Shown piece after piece: positions 1,553-45,982 of a DNA stretch of 64,000 nucleotides. How positions within the stretch are numbered: the first letter of the stretch is position 1; the number at the start of each line of letters is the position of its first letter. Origin of the DNA: an uncultured Muribaculaceae bacterium (GTDB taxonomy: Bacteria; Bacteroidota; Bacteroidia; Bacteroidales; Muribaculaceae); contig CALUMG010000003.1 of assembly GCA_944321705.1 (NCBI GenBank), positions 124,001 to 188,000 of the forward strand, in the 5' to 3' direction. Below the pieces are notes generated by a model. It did not search any database and had not been told where the DNA came from. It saw nothing but the letters and a program-made list of their open reading frames with translations. A program made the position numbers and the translations under genes.

Positions 1553-4500
1553 ATGACAACAAACGCAGGCCTTGGCACAAACGACGACTTCACAAATGCT
1601 CTCGGGCATCGTGTCCTCGTTCTCGACGGTGCAATGGGCACAATGATACAAAAATATAAACTTGACGAAAGTGATTTCAGAGGCAAACGGTTCTCAGAAT
1701 GGAAACAACCGTTGAAAGGATGCAATGACGTCCTCGTCTTGACCAAGCCCGAAATCATTTCTGAGATACATCGTGCATATATCGAAGCCGGTGCCGACAT
1801 AATAGAAACAAATTCATTCAATGCCAATGCGATATCCCTTGCCGATTACGGACTTGCCGACATGGTAAAGGGAATAAACATCACCGCTGCCCGGGTGGCT
1901 CGACAATGTGCCGACTCATGCAATCGAAAATGCTGGGTGGCAGGCAGCATAGGACCGACCAACCGAAGCCTTTCTATCTCTCCATCGGTTGAAAATCCGG
2001 CATTGCGCAATTTGTCGTGGGATGAATTGACCGAAACCTATTGCGACCAGATTTCCGGCCTAATCGAAGGCGGCGTAGACATCCTTTTAATCGAAACGGT
2101 ATTTGACACGCTCAATGCCAAAGCTGCCTTATGGGCTGCAAATAAAGTAATGAACGACACCGGCAAGAAGTTGCCGATAATGGTTTCGGCCACATTGACC
2201 GAAAGTGGCCGAATACTAAGCGGACAAACCATCGAGGCGTTTCTTGTTTCCATCGAGCATGCCAATGTAACATGCGTGGGACTGAATTGCGGCTTCGGAG
2301 CTAAAAAAATGGCTGAATGGCTTGAAGAACTTGCCGACAAATCTCCCGTAGCAGTCAGTGTCCATCCTAATGCCGGACTGCCAAACGAAATGGGGGAATA
2401 TGACCAATCGCCCGAAGAAATGGCCGGGCAAATGAAACCATTCATCGAAAAATCATTGGTCAACATCGTGGGAGGCTGTTGCGGCACCACCCCCGACCAT
2501 ATCCGGGCCATTGCCGCGATTACTGCCGGAGCAACACCAAAACACATTGCCCATCACAAGGGAAACAAACTCGTGCTTTCGGGATTTGAAAGCATGGAAG
2601 TGTCTCCCGAGCGTTGTTTTGTAAATATTGGGGAACGGTGCAATGTGGCCGGAAGCCGCAAATTCCTGCGGCTAATAAATGAGAAAAATTATGACGAAGC
2701 TTTGTCTGTCGCAAGCAAGCAGGTAGAAAACGGTGCGCAAATAATCGATGTGAACATGGACGACGCCATGCTTGACGCTCCTCGCGAAATGTCGCATTTC
2801 TTGCGACTTGTAGCATCCGACCCCGATGTGGCAAAAGTCCCCATAATGATTGACTCATCCAATTGGAATGTGATAACCGCCGGACTGAAAGAATTGCAAG
2901 GCAAGGGCATCGTGAATTCCATAAGTCTGAAAGACGGGGAACAGATGTTCATCGACAAGGCGCGATACATACGCGACATGGGAGCTGCAGTTGTCGTAAT
3001 GGCTTTCGATGAGAAAGGACAGGCCGACACATTTGAACGGAAAATAGAAATATGCCGCAGGGCCTACGACTTGCTCATTTCCCGGCTTGACTTCAAGCCT
3101 CAAGACATAATTTTCGACCCTAACGTGCTTGCAATCGCCACTGGCATGGAGCAACACGCCGATTACGCACTCGACTTCTTAAAAGCGGTAGAATGGATTA
3201 AAGACAACCTGCCCGGAGCAAAAGTGAGCGGAGGCATCAGTAACCTGTCATTCTCGTTCCGTGGCAACAACTTCGTGCGTGAAGCCATGCATTCGGCATT
3301 CTTGTTCCATGCCATTGCTCGAGGGCTTGACATGGCTATTGTCAACGCCGCAGCGGCAATGCCCTACGATGACATACCGCCGAAATTGCGTGCGACTATC
3401 GAAGATGTCATTTTCAACCGCACAGCCGATGCCACCGACCGTCTTGTAGAAGAAGCTGCCGAAATAAAAGAGAAGCAAAATCCAAATGTGCCGGTAAAAA
3501 ATGACACATCCACCGACGATGCAGAACTTGATGTTTCGCAAAAACTCGAACAACTCGTCGTGCGCGGTTCTACCGAGAACCTTGAGGAACTCCTCGACAA
3601 AGCATTGTCAAGCGGGAATTCAGCCATAAGCATCATCGACGGGCCGTTGATGAAAGGTATGGACCGCGTAGGCAAACTATTTGGCGAGGGCAGAATGTTC
3701 CTTCCTCAAGTTGTAAAAAGTGCAAGAATAATGAAACTTGCCGTCAACAAGCTCACCCCGTTCATCGAAGCCGAACGCAAGTCGGGCAGCAATGCCCGTG
3801 CTGGTAAAATGGTGCTTGCCACAGTAAAAGGTGATGTCCACGACATCGGGAAAAACATCGTCGCCATAATCATGCGCTGCAACGGATATGACGTGACCGA
3901 CCTCGGTGTAATGGTCCCGGCCGACAAAATCATAGAAACTGCCATAGCCGAACATGCCGACTTGATTGGCCTGAGCGGGCTCATAACCCCGTCGCTCGAA
4001 GAGATGTGCCATGTAGCCAAGGCTATGGAAGAACGTCACATCGACACGCCTCTGTTTGTTGGAGGCGCAACTACATCCGATATTCACACGGCAATAAAAA
4101 TAGCTCCTCTGTATCACGGTCCGGTAATTCACACTCGCGATGCGGCAGCACTGCCGGTTGTGGCAAAACGTCTTTTCTCCGACAATGAGAATTTCATCAG
4201 TGAATTAAACTTGCGTTATGCACAATTACGCAAGGAATATTCCGAAAGCCACAACTTGATGTCTTTGACCGAAGCTCGAAGCAAAAGGCTTAAATTAAAT
4301 TTTTCACCCGTAAAACCGTCTGAAACCCTTGGTATCCATCACGAATCGATAACAGTGAGCGAAGCAGCCGAATACATCAACTGGAAAGCATTTTTCGCTG
4401 CATGGAAACTTGGCGGCGACATGGCCGGAATCGCCAATGTGAAAGGTTGCGATTGCTGCAAAGCCTCATGGCTCGCAAGCCATGACCATGCCGACATGAA

Positions 4501-15036: not shown

Positions 15037-17484
15037 TTATTCGCCCGAAGGTGCTCCGCTACTGGAAACGTTGCCTCCACCGCCACCCACCACGTCGTCG
15101 TTGTTGATAGTGGTGCGAGTCTTCTTCACCGAAGCCTTGAGTGAGCCAAAGCGGAACGATACCGCCACTTGGAACATGCGTTGCGGATAATGTCCCACTT
15201 CCCAACCCGTATAATCGCCATAACGTGTTATCGACTTAGCCTTCATATATTTCGACAAGAACGGATTCATGGCATATAATTGCACCGTCAAGCGGTCGTC
15301 CTTCAAGAACGAACGTTGCAGTCCAAGTGTATAGAAATAATTGGGTTTTGAATAGCTGTATAAATTCCATATACCACCACCGTTGCGCCCACCCATCACG
15401 CTCAGGCGCAGTTTCCATGGCAGTTCTTGAGAAGCACGGGCGAAAAAATTAAAAGCCCAACGCTCGTTTTCTATCATCAAGCCATCATTACGATAGTCAC
15501 CGTATGACACCGACGCATTTATCGACAAGTTGGTCTTCTTCGTCGGCATCCATTGAGCATATAGGTTAAACCACCCATTGCGCACCTTGCCGATGTTGTC
15601 GTAGGTACCGTATCGTATGTCATACTCGGTATATACATATTTAGTAATCTGATCGTTGCTTAATGAGTAACCAACCGAAGTATTAAGTGTCAACTTAGGA
15701 TGTATGTAAGTATAAGTAGCTTGCAGCGAATGATTGCGCGCACTCACGAGCGAAGGATTTCCATAACTCACCTCGGTCGGCGACTCGTTGACGGTTGGGT
15801 CAAGATAGCTTATGCCCGGACGATTGATGCGCGTCGAGAAATTCAACCGCAGGTTGTTTTTGTCATTGACACGATAACCAAGGCTGAGAGTAGGCACAAG
15901 GTCATTCAAGTTCTTTCCCATGTAAGGGCTGTCACCTATTCGATAATCGGCAGTCATGCGGGCAAATTCATAACGCAATCCTGCGCGAGCCATCCATGGA
16001 CCTGACGAGAACGAATATTCCCCATAGATTGCACCGACATGAGTGCGGTGCATGAAGTCGAGCAACACAGGAGTCGATTCATCCTGTTGCGTTGAACTTG
16101 CGCTATGGTTTCGGCGGAAGATGTATTTCGCCCCCACGTCGAGCTTGTGCTTGTCGCCAAACGGGCGCGTGTAATCGAGCTGGAACGTATGTTCCCACAT
16201 CTTTTGGTCGGAATCATACAAGTAGCGCGTGTAATCGAATTGAGGATTAACAAGATCCTCAAAATTGGAATCATAATTATTCCCGGTCCCGGATGCCGAC
16301 AACAGATAAGAGAAATTCAAAGCCTCACCCTTGAGTTGGGTCAAGTGCTGGTAATCGAGCCGTCCGCTCACGTTGAAATAATCATACTGCTGCCCTTCAC
16401 CGAAAGTCTGCACATAAGAATACAGCAAGTTGCCATCAGCATCAAACATTTGCGTCGCATTATCACCATGCTGGTCTATCCCGAGTGCATATCCGCTGAA
16501 TGATGCAGTGACAAGATTAAGCGTGTCGATTTCATAACTCAAGTCGAGCGAGGCAAAATGCATGTTTCCCGGATTTTCCATCACAATGCTCCCTGTTTCA
16601 TTGTTTCCCGTTTCGGCATAAGTGTAGGAATGATCTTGATATTGCTCATATCCGCCTATGTTGACGTAAAAATAGTTTATGCTTGCCGTCAACTTGTCGT
16701 TGAAGCTCGTTGTCAAGTACAAGTTCCCTCCGGGTTGTTTCAAGGTGTTATATTGGGCATACAACGAGCCCATCACGCCGTCGATGCGACTGTTGTCCTT
16801 CATCACAATGTTCAAGATTCCGTTAACCCCTTCTGCATCATATTTCGCACCCGGCTCGGTGATTACCTCAATCTTTTCCACCATGTCGGCCGGTATCGAC
16901 TTCAGCACCTGCGACGGATTGCCCGACAGCGTATTGTCGGGACGACCGTTTTTGTAAATTTTGAAATCACTGCTTCCGTTCACCTGAATGTTGTCCTGTC
17001 CGTCAACTGTCACCATCGGCACTTTCTTCAGCATTTCGAGTATCGAGCTGGCCTTTGCATCCTCGTCGCTGGCCACATCATAGCTCAGGCGGTCGATTTC
17101 GGCAGTCACAAGCGGCTTCTGTGCCACCACTTCCACCTCCGAAAGAACATTTTCGGCTTGTCGTAACACTATTGTACCGAGGTCGGCAACCTTATTACCT
17201 CCATTCACTTCAAACCACCGGGAGAACTGCTCCTTGCCTACCGATGTCACCGTCAGCTTGTAACGCCCCGCGTAACCTATTTCTTCCATGAAACATCCAT
17301 CACCATCGGTCACGCCAACTTTACCGGCTTTCACTGTATCGCTTTCCGTATAAATTCTTACCGTAGCATATGGTTCTCCCACATTTATACTGTCCACGAC
17401 AATACCCTTAACCGAATATTGGGCAAATGCACCTGCCACCGTCCAGCATGACAAGACGACAGCCCAAAACACTTTTTTTATCAT
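15037..17484 (-). CDS. TonB-dependent-receptor-like outer-membrane beta-barrel protein
   Basis: 815 residues: signal peptide (ends AGAFA), a carboxypeptidase-regulatory-like Ig fold (YSVKGIVVDSINVGEPYATV), a plug-like domain (LSEVEVVAQKPLVTAEIDR, then VDGQDNIQVNGSSDFKIYKN and VEKIEVITEPGAKYDAEG), and a long barrel of alternating strands ending in VAVSFRFGSLKASVKK. The architecture is that of the OMP_b-brl_3 receptor family, which usually lacks an obvious TonB box. It may import a small ligand across the outer membrane. No SusD partner is adjacent, so it is not a polysaccharide-utilisation pair. Promoter element at 17619; a run of nine C lies upstream of it. Confidence 0.88.
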   Translation of the reverse strand: MIKKVFWAVVLSCWTVAGAFAQYSVKGIVVDSINVGEPYATVRIYTESDTVKAGKVGVTDGDGCFMEEIGYAGRYKLTVTSVGKEQFSRWFEVNGGNKVADLGTIVLRQAENVLSEVEVVAQKPLVTAEIDRLSYDVASDEDAKASSILEMLKKVPMVTVDGQDNIQVNGSSDFKIYKNGRPDNTLSGNPSQVLKSIPADMVEKIEVITEPGAKYDAEGVNGILNIVMKDNSRIDGVMGSLYAQYNTLKQPGGNLYLTTSFNDKLTASINYFYVNIGGYEQYQDHSYTYAETGNNETGSIVMENPGNMHFASLDLSYEIDTLNLVTASFSGYALGIDQHGDNATQMFDADGNLLYSYVQTFGEGQQYDYFNVSGRLDYQHLTQLKGEALNFSYLLSASGTGNNYDSNFEDLVNPQFDYTRYLYDSDQKMWEHTFQLDYTRPFGDKHKLDVGAKYIFRRNHSASSTQQDESTPVLLDFMHRTHVGAIYGEYSFSSGPWMARAGLRYEFARMTADYRIGDSPYMGKNLNDLVPTLSLGYRVNDKNNLRLNFSTRINRPGISYLDPTVNESPTEVSYGNPSLVSARNHSLQATYTYIHPKLTLNTSVGYSLSNDQITKYVYTEYDIRYGTYDNIGKVRNGWFNLYAQWMPTKKTNLSINASVSYGDYRNDGLMIENERWAFNFFARASQELPWKLRLSVMGGRNGGGIWNLYSYSKPNYFYTLGLQRSFLKDDRLTVQLYAMNPFLSKYMKAKSITRYGDYTGWEVGHYPQRMFQVAVSFRFGSLKASVKKTRTTINNDDVVGGGGGNVSSSGAPSGE

Positions 17485-17669: not shown

Positions 17670-17678
17670 CCCCCCCCC
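17670..17678. repeat. Homopolymer of nine C upstream of the barrel promoter
   Basis: Nine consecutive C lie about 44 bases upstream (on the minus strand) of the barrel gene's -7 element, between it and the rpsA terminator. A tract this long is slippage-prone. Confidence 0.8.
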
Positions 17679-43047: not shown

Positions 43048-44733
43048 ATGAATAGTAAATTATTCTTATCTGTCTTAGTGGGAGCTACTTTGGCTTTAAC
43101 AAGCTGTAACAAGAAGCTCAGCGAAATCAGCGCCGAGTATTTCACTGTCAATCCATCTCCCCTTGAAGTAGTTGCCGGCAAGGTTCCTGCTACCGTGACA
43201 GGACAAATTCCGGAAAAATTCTTCGTGAAGAACGCAGAAGTAACTGTTACTCCATATCTTGTATATGGCGACCAAGAAACTGCTTCTACTCCTTACAAAC
43301 TCATTGGCGAAGACGTTAACGGCAATGGACAAACCGTTTCTTACGACAACGGTGGAACTGTTACCGTACCGGTTTCTTTCGACTATGTACCTGAAATGAT
43401 TAAATCAAGCCTCGTTCTTGACTTCCAAGTTCAACAAGGCAAAAAGACTTATGTATTGCCTCGCATCAAAGTTGCCGACGGCGTTATAGCTACCGCAACT
43501 CTTGCCGATGCCGGTGCCGTTGTTCCTGCAACAACTGCCGACAAGTTCCAACGCATCATCAACGAGCAATACAATGCCGAAATCAAGTTCTTGATCAACC
43601 AATCAAACGTTAGAAAGAGCGAACTTGAATCTCAACAACTTGCCGACTTCAATTCGGCTATTGCAAATGCCCAAGGCAACGACCGCATCGAAGTTGAAGA
43701 AGTGAACATCTCTTCTTACGCTTCTCCTGATGGTAAGTACGACTTCAACCAACGTTTGGCCGGAAATCGTGAAAAGAACACCAAGAAATATCTTGAAAAA
43801 TCTTTCAAGGACAACGAAATCAAGGAATTTGGCGAATTGACTGCCGACTTCACCGCTGAAGACTGGGAAGGCTTCAAGGAACTCGTTTCTAAGAGCGACA
43901 TCCAAGACAAGGACCTCATCCTTAATGTTCTTTCAATGTACAGCGATCCTGAACAACGTGAAAAGGAAATCAGAAACTTGTCGGAAGTATTCGAACAAAT
44001 CGCCGATGAAATCCTTCCTCAATTGCGTCGTTCTCGCTTGACTGCTTCTATCAACGTTATCGGTAAGAGCGATGAAGAAATCATGCAAGCTTTCAACAGC
44101 GATCCTAAATCTTTGAATGTTGAAGAATTGCTTTACTGCGGTACTTTGACCGACGATAACAACAAGCGCATCGAAATTTACAAGGCTTGCACCGAAAACT
44201 ATCCTAACGACTACCGTGGCTACAACAACTTGGGTATGTGCCAATACATCGCAGGAAACTATGACGCTGCAAAAGCCAACTTCAACAAGGCTGCAAACCT
44301 TGCTCCTGAAAGTGCTGAAACTCACATGAACCAAGGTCTTTGCGACTTGATAGATGAAAACTTCGACGCTGCAAACGAAAAATTCGGTGCTGCAGCTGGT
44401 GCTGAAGGCTTGAACGAAGCTATCGGTGTTTACTACATGGAAAAGGGTGACTACAATGCTGCTGCTAACGCATTTGGAGATGCTAAGACTAACAACGCTG
44501 CTCTTGCACAAATCCTTACTAAGGACTACAGCAAGGCTCGCAACACTCTTGCAGCTATCAACGAACCTGATGCTAACACCTACTACTTGATGGCAGTTCT
44601 TGGCGCACGCACTAACAACGAACAAATGGTTCTTTCTAACTTGCGTCAAGCTATCGACAAGGACAGCACTCTTCGCGACAAGGCTGCTAACGACCTTGAA
44701 TTTGCTAAGTTCAACATCACAAGCGCCCTCTAA
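43048..44733 (+). CDS. TPR lipoprotein with OmpA-like segment
   Basis: 561 residues. Lipoprotein signal MNSKLFLSVLVGATLALTSC. Residues ~25-160 are beta-rich (VPATVTGQIPEKFFVKNA); ~170-260 contain NQSNVRKSEL and SSYASPDGKYDFNQRLAGNR, resembling the OmpA-like peptidoglycan-binding fold; ~370-555 carry tetratricopeptide repeats (YRGYNNLGMCQYIAGNYDAA, ETHMNQGLCDLIDENFDAA, AIGVYYMEKGDYNAAANAFG). It probably sits in the outer membrane facing the periplasm and may scaffold envelope proteins. Codon use is visibly more uniform than in its neighbours (GCT, AAC, CAA, AAG preferred late in the gene), suggesting high expression. Exact role unknown. Confidence 0.82.
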   Translation: MNSKLFLSVLVGATLALTSCNKKLSEISAEYFTVNPSPLEVVAGKVPATVTGQIPEKFFVKNAEVTVTPYLVYGDQETASTPYKLIGEDVNGNGQTVSYDNGGTVTVPVSFDYVPEMIKSSLVLDFQVQQGKKTYVLPRIKVADGVIATATLADAGAVVPATTADKFQRIINEQYNAEIKFLINQSNVRKSELESQQLADFNSAIANAQGNDRIEVEEVNISSYASPDGKYDFNQRLAGNREKNTKKYLEKSFKDNEIKEFGELTADFTAEDWEGFKELVSKSDIQDKDLILNVLSMYSDPEQREKEIRNLSEVFEQIADEILPQLRRSRLTASINVIGKSDEEIMQAFNSDPKSLNVEELLYCGTLTDDNNKRIEIYKACTENYPNDYRGYNNLGMCQYIAGNYDAAKANFNKAANLAPESAETHMNQGLCDLIDENFDAANEKFGAAAGAEGLNEAIGVYYMEKGDYNAAANAFGDAKTNNAALAQILTKDYSKARNTLAAINEPDANTYYLMAVLGARTNNEQMVLSNLRQAIDKDSTLRDKAANDLEFAKFNITSAL

Positions 44734-44781
44734 TAGCGACACACTTCATCACATGTCCCCAGCGACATGAATGAGATAACG

Positions 44782-44817
44782 AATATCCGGGAGACAACAG
44801 TTTCCCGGATATTTTTA
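44782..44817 (+). terminator. Terminator of the TPR lipoprotein gene
   Basis: AATATCCGGGA / TCCCGGATATT stem followed by TTTATAT, about 50 bases past the stop. Confidence 0.85.
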
Positions 44818-44843: not shown

Positions 44844-44875
44844 TTTGACTTCTATTGCCATTATTGCTAACTTTG
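44844..44875 (+). promoter_or_regulatory. Promoter of the interrupted acyltransferase gene
   Basis: TTTG, 20 bases, then TAACTTTG: both promoter boxes match the Bacteroidetes consensus. The start is predicted near 44882, 33 bases before the ATG. The promoter is intact even though the gene is out of frame. Confidence 0.65.
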
Positions 44876-44914: not shown

Positions 44915-45982
44915 ATGGGAACTAAACGAATTGAATTTATCGACGCAATGCGTGGATTCACCATGCTGCTCGTGGTGTACACCCATATCATATTTTTTAG
45001 CTATTACAACTCAGGTTTTGATGATTTAAGTTATGGGGGGGGGTAAACTACTGAGTTTTAATGCTTTATTCGTCACATTCCGAATGCCGTTGTTTTTCTT
45101 CATCAGCGGATTCATATTATACAAGAACGATTTTGAATGGACACTGCCTGTAAGCGGAAAATTCCTGTTGAAAAAAGCCAAAGTCCAATTAATACCGACC
45201 CTGTTCTTCCTCGCAGTGTTTGTGTATATATTTGACAGGTCATTTGTAGATTCCATTTTTGATGGTACAAAAGGAGGATATTGGTTTACAATCGCATTGT
45301 TTGAATTCTTCCTGCTATATGTGCTTTTGCGCATCATATGCAACAAACTTGGATACAAAAACGGTGTCGATTGGTTGATTTTGGCAGCAGCAGTTATCAT
45401 TTACTTTGTAAGACGCTGGTATCTCACATCCGGCCTGTATGAAGAGCCTATGTTTCTTCTTGTTGGAATGGAAAATCTAAGCTACTTCCTCTTCTTCGTA
45501 ATAGGTACATTGGCAAGAAAACATTACGATAAAATACAGAAATTTGCCGAGAATGGATATATTGTCGCAGCATGCCTACTGTTTTCTTCGGTGTAATCAT
45601 ATATAAGCTCCATGAATCTCAAGAAATGAGTTCCGTGCTGTCAATATTATATTTATTAAGCCGTATAGTAGGCGTAATACTCGTTTTCATATTTTTCATG
45701 AAAAACGAGAACCTGTTCACACAAGAGACCCGACTCGGCAGGGCGCTGCAATATGTAGGCCGCCGCACACTCGACATATACCTTCTCCATTACTTTTTCC
45801 TGCCTCGCAATTTGGAGCCGATAGCCAATTTTTTCAACACCTATCAAAACCCGTCGCTGGAACTCTTTGTCTCACTCCTGCTGTCAATTATGGTAGTATA
45901 CCTGTGTCTGCTCATGAGCAAAATCATCCGCTTAAGTCCTGTCTTGGCCGACTGGCTGCTCGGAGTGAAGAAAAAAGCATGA
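44915..45982 (+). pseudogene. Acyltransferase family 3 gene interrupted at a G9 tract (and at a second indel)
   Basis: The ATG at 44915 opens KRIEFIDAMRGFTMLLVVYT, the classic acyltransferase-3 N-terminus. After 40 codons a run of nine G (45035-45043) leads straight to TAA. Removing one G would join it to the next frame (KLLSFNALFVTFRMPLFFFI... to FSSV, stop at 45594). That frame breaks near TTTT at 45582-45585; one extra T would restore the last segment (FFGVIIYKLHESQE ... VKKKA, ending 45982). The two shifts cancel, so the parent gene was ~355 codons, a normal length with about ten helices. Such enzymes O-acylate surface sugars. It is either phase-variable plus damaged, a decaying gene, or a homopolymer sequencing error. 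Confidence 0.85.
45035..45043 (+). repeat. Poly-G tract of nine bases inside the acyltransferase gene
   Basis: Nine G directly before an in-frame TAA. Eight (or eleven) G would allow read-through into the downstream acyltransferase frame; nine do not. Confidence 0.9.

Follow-up and report, generated by a model that had tools for sequence, protein, structure and literature searches.

Slips in the copying of G runs let bacteria turn genes on and off. In gut Bacteroidales, phase variation is usually attributed to DNA inversions, and promoter inversions are known for the order. Acyltransferase-3 (AT3) proteins are a family of membrane enzymes that modify surface sugars, and their genes supply some of the closest described systems. 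The oafA gene of Haemophilus influenzae encodes a phase-variable AT3 O-acetyltransferase of lipooligosaccharide with simple repeats, and one genome proved to contain a frameshifted copy (PMC9558356). In Salmonella, O-antigen acetylation by the AT3 gene oafB is switched within the population (PMC9558356). The Bacteroides fragilis PSI/9 acetyltransferase-related gene is frameshifted at a short run of C, and slippage was proposed as one origin of variation in the capsule (PMC3090145). Poly-G contingency loci are described in Neisseria, for example the porA promoter and haemoglobin receptor genes (PMC3639595, PMC3786947). A limited search, without subscription papers or preprints, found no paper on poly-G phase variation in Bacteroidales.

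Here, we describe an AT3 gene broken at a run of nine G, and again further downstream, in a 64,000-nucleotide stretch of an uncultured Muribaculaceae genome (hereafter, the window). Its parts are as follows.

44781–44814, plus strand: terminator-like hairpin of 15 pairs, 3′ of the upstream TPR-protein gene (43048–44733)
44844–44875, plus strand: promoter-like site with TTTG (−33), N20 and TAACTTTG (−7), as in the Bacteroidetes consensus for the primary sigma factor (PMC7366714)
44915–45046, plus strand: AT3 piece 1, 43 amino acids, the N-terminus; PF01757 positions 2–31, E 2.8e-4
45035–45043, plus strand: run of nine G, site of the first frame break
45033–45596, plus strand: AT3 piece 2, 187 amino acids, in another frame; PF01757 positions 42–221, E 3.1e-13
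about 45570–45596, plus strand: second frame change, between pieces 2 and 3
45572–45982, plus strand: AT3 piece 3, 136 amino acids, the C-terminal third; PF01757 positions 234–324, E 6.1e-5

When the window sequence was read directly, the nine G led straight into TAA (45044–45046), the end of piece 1 reading GGG GGG GGG TAA, and frame translation from the ATG at 44915 gave the same short open reading frame that the first-pass annotation had reported. That annotation had also taken this ATG as the start of an AT3 N-terminus, which is borne out by the PF01757 match and by an R-X10-H motif (R13, 44951–44953; H24, 44984–44986), placed in the first membrane helix of AT3 enzymes (PMC9833829). A protein started at the internal ATG 45033 would be without this motif. 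Its further claim, that a tract of eight G would carry the frame into the rest of the enzyme, failed: such a frame would run only to the TAA at 45594–45596, which halts piece 2 still inside the enzyme, and the C-terminal third lies in another frame. The gene thus has two breaks and not one, the second having been overlooked. Piece 3 shares the frame of piece 1, and piece 2 differs from both; in the alignment with a homologue (L010), all three pieces lie in one frame, with 85% identity over 27 residues for piece 1, 49% for piece 2, and 56% over 118 residues for piece 3. The alignment located the second frame change to the interval listed above and not to a single base, and the sequence of that interval contains no long homopolymer or repeat. 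In the profile search, piece 2 exceeded the curated PF01757 cut-off, and pieces 1 and 3, each taken alone, fell below it. Because pieces 2 and 3 contain no nonsense codon in their homologous parts, the breaks look recent. With two frame changes, the locus encodes no intact ten-helix AT3 protein. The RXXR motif at the third helix of AT3 enzymes is conserved highly, though not absolutely; it was not found in this protein, where KKAK stands near that place (positioned by eye), and the alignment shows KK at the same place in most close homologues as well.

The upstream promoter was intact, as previously annotated, with TTTG at 44844–44847 and TAACTTTG at 44868–44875 matching exactly at the N20 spacing; the window holds six occurrences of this pattern, compared with an expectation of 1.4. 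The terminator-like hairpin is weak evidence by itself, because one was found and 1.0 was expected in shuffles. No Sigma70-type promoter was found in the locus region, and none is expected in Bacteroidetes. The TPR-protein gene and the CoA-transferase gene that flank the locus occur in all congeners and are not adjacent in them wherever the flanks were read; therefore, there is no clean empty site for comparison.

Building on the observed tract, frames, promoter match and second break, and on the finding that AT3 genes inside and outside the genus repeatedly carry G runs, we regard the locus as probably a slippage-prone, contingency-type AT3 gene that is off at nine G and carries a second lesion, making it a pseudogene or a locked-off allele. 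Its own promoter would drive a frame that crosses a G run where the loop following the first membrane helix is encoded, and gain or loss of one G there would shift the ribosome into or out of frame; the tract at nine G would be the off register in this genome, and the second frame change, in the last third, would leave a pseudogene or a locked-off allele. We infer slippage at the tract, and switching on and off in the past; judging from the family only, the substrate would be a surface glycan and the group an O-acyl. The second frame change breaks the gene in every register, so that no tract length yields an intact product and slippage of the G tract alone would be unable to switch this copy on. 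We therefore do not claim that it is a phase-variable locus. The phase variation by slippage proposed in the first-pass annotation, which was right in its detailed observations and incomplete, is thus partly supported: it stands for the gene class, in which AT3 poly-G tracts recur in both registers, and is doubtful for this copy.

The tract exceeds chance length, and the frame of the gene differs on its two sides, as in a contingency locus. The window contains two runs of nine G, whereas shuffles gave 0.06 expected per 64 kb. The window's genome has 10 G runs of nine or more and only one that is exactly eight long; across the nine genomes of the genus, the totals are 73 and 64, respectively, and all 73 of the longer runs were inspected in a census made by searches plus sequence stretches. 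Nine G at a frame break were found in seven of about 43 AT3 genes of these genomes (counted after merging fragments by hand), compared with 0.14 expected by length share when AT3 genes are taken as about 46 kb out of 23.6 Mb (Poisson 2e-10). Besides the window gene, these are L091 (in the window's own genome, G000), L177 (G003), L183 (G004), L199 and L200 (G005), and L213 (G006). L177, L199 and L183 are orthologous, giving at least five lineages, and the Poisson value is 4e-7 when the three are counted once. When the positions of runs and genes were compared, no G run of exactly eight overlapped an AT3 gene of the genus. Other G runs in the AT3 frames read were six or shorter, with runs of seven possible at several loci where the script had picked a neighbouring frame.

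In the genus, the tract leaves all seven of these AT3 genes out of frame, an outcome with a chance of about 6% under random registers, and decay would explain this pattern no less well than switching. The shift is one base too many in six of the seven tracts, the exception being L183. Further frame changes occur in four of the seven (L091, L199, L183 and the window gene); the extra lesion is one additional G in a short G run in L199 and lies at an eight-A run in L091.

No AT3 orthologue close enough for comparison of the tract was found in the eight congeners, nor any close orthologue in 297 genomes of the family (best, 44% identity); the closest homologue, in GTDB contigs, shared about 49% identity. 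Among 99 homologous loci read, G or C tracts of 8–9 in AT3 reading frames were in the frame of the gene start in five cases (two genes of L020, and L042, L059 and L159) and out of frame in two (L035 and L059), so both registers exist in AT3 genes. L010–L089 span 644 kb and contain nine runs of at least eight, six of which fell within Pfam-confirmed AT3 genes; these loci were fetched by AT3 homology and are hence AT3-enriched, and a test restricted to the query gene itself (4/9) gives 0.02. At the level of sequence, the repeated finding of poly-G tracts in AT3 genes, both in this genus and in other Bacteroidales, makes a slippage-prone class well supported. In a Bacteroides metagenome-assembled genome (L020, 2950–5924), three adjacent genes each have a G8 or G9 tract: two are confirmed AT3 genes in frame, and the third (at 3085) is AT3-like by eye, out of frame, and has no Pfam match.

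Tracts were also found in other genes of the genus. In the window's genome, a type I restriction S-subunit gene (L096, 3508–4561, minus strand) is split at nine G with PF01420 in both halves, which makes phase-variable specificity possible, and another gene (L094), which we think is a fucosyltransferase, is split at nine C and has no Pfam match. Tracts lie in frame in two hexapeptide-repeat acyltransferase genes (L183, L213), a family 2 glycosyltransferase gene with 13 G (L215), a sugar transferase gene (L214), an outer-membrane barrel gene (L212) and a D-Ala-D-Ala carboxypeptidase gene (L097). In two species (L092, L192), a HisB-like phosphatase gene is followed by nine G immediately after its stop codon. 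Loss of mismatch repair was considered as a cause and rejected, since a MutS domain was found in all nine genomes in open frames of about 870 amino acids or more; slippage therefore need not be frequent.

An ordinary decaying pseudogene, with an incidental G run and no slippage biology, would account for the two frame changes in the window gene and for the off state of every tract-bearing AT3 gene in the genus. Decay is visible elsewhere: the orthologues L199 and L183 carry additional breaks, and genome G008 retains only a C-terminal remnant. The window gene also sits between genes that are separate in congeners, and it has no close orthologue in the family genomes. An incidental run, however, leaves unexplained both the excess of nine-G runs in AT3 genes and the in-frame tracts of other Bacteroidales, and we consider this explanation unlikely. 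At the other extreme, the locus could be a working phase-variable switch in which eight or nine G toggle the whole enzyme and the second break was introduced during assembly or belongs to a minority variant. Tracts of the same class in other AT3 genes, some of them in frame, agree with this, as do the intact promoter and the two tract-broken genes of the same genome (L094 and L096), which show no further visible frame change. The second break is nevertheless present in the assembly, outside any long homopolymer, and the assembly, 99.82% complete, is good in other respects, which makes a live switch a rather improbable account of this copy.

The one-base excess common to six of the seven AT3 tracts, together with second breaks at a short G run (L199) and an A run (L091), is what would be seen if sequencing or assembly had added one G at homopolymers. 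Such errors would be expected across all gene classes without a bias to AT3 genes, and elsewhere long tracts keep the frame (L097, L212, L214 and L215); we therefore find an artefact very unlikely. A slippage-prone gene with a second lesion remains our preferred reading.

A further class of tracts, intergenic and 8–11 G long, lies at promoter-like sites and is kept upstream of orthologues in up to seven species, with differing lengths. Of 72 tracts, 17 are preceded by a TTAAC/TTAAA/GTTAA-type element no more than 25 bases away and followed by TAnnTTTG no more than 60 bases away, compared with 0.24% of random positions, which included coding DNA, so that the excess is smaller if set against intergenic DNA. 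A small lipoprotein gene has G8, G9 or G10 upstream in seven species (L090, L175, L178, L190, L203, L227 and L233), and at this promoter-like site the distance from TTAAC to TATATTTG (TACATTTG in L190) stays at about 31–33 though the length of the tract varies. The second nine-G run of the window (17670–17678, minus strand) is likewise intergenic, with an rpsA-like gene on one side and an outer-membrane beta-barrel gene (L093, about 15037–17484 of the window, minus strand) on the other, the tract being upstream of the latter; a TTAA-type element lies upstream of the run and TACGTTTG downstream. Genes similar to this barrel gene in L181, L191, L218 and L229 have G9 or G10 upstream, the flanks in L181 and L229 being identical around ten and nine G, respectively. 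In the sequences compared, these differences in promoter-tract length are differences between species. The intergenic promoter class may be more novel than the coding tracts. In four congeners (L172, L180, L220 and L223), tracts of G9–G11 lie by a malic-enzyme-like gene, with TAnnTTTG 18–25 bases downstream.

It is conceivable, though we put it short of probable, that the genus has a genome-wide poly-G slippage system, alongside promoter inversions, comprising the frames of AT3 genes and of a restriction S-subunit gene and a set of promoters, such as those of a lipoprotein gene and of outer-membrane barrel genes, in which the tract sets the spacing between TTAAC and TAnnTTTG. If so, poly-G switching would act on enzymes of surface sugars, on restriction specificity and on proteins of the outer membrane, as in Neisseria or Campylobacter, and genes in the off phase may account for many of the 'pseudogenes' of gut genomes, something that tract counts in existing metagenome reads could reveal. 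The AT3 gene of the window also serves as a warning: an off register may come with a second lesion, and a G tract alone is therefore no proof of a live switch.

Compared with the systems described above, the locus differs from Salmonella oafB in that control there is epigenetic, without slippage. The B. fragilis PSI/9 gene is likewise a Bacteroidales acetyltransferase-type gene with a homopolymer frameshift, but its run is just four C plus one extra, AT3 membership was not shown for it, and few strains were compared. The Neisseria loci also have poly-G within the promoters or frames of surface genes; they belong to another phylum and to other genes, and switching was demonstrated there, whereas here past switching is proposed from sequence. 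In H. influenzae oafA, the repeats are tetranucleotides in place of poly-G, and the product and its switching were studied experimentally (PMC9558356); the likeness lies in an AT3 gene with simple repeats and a frameshifted copy.
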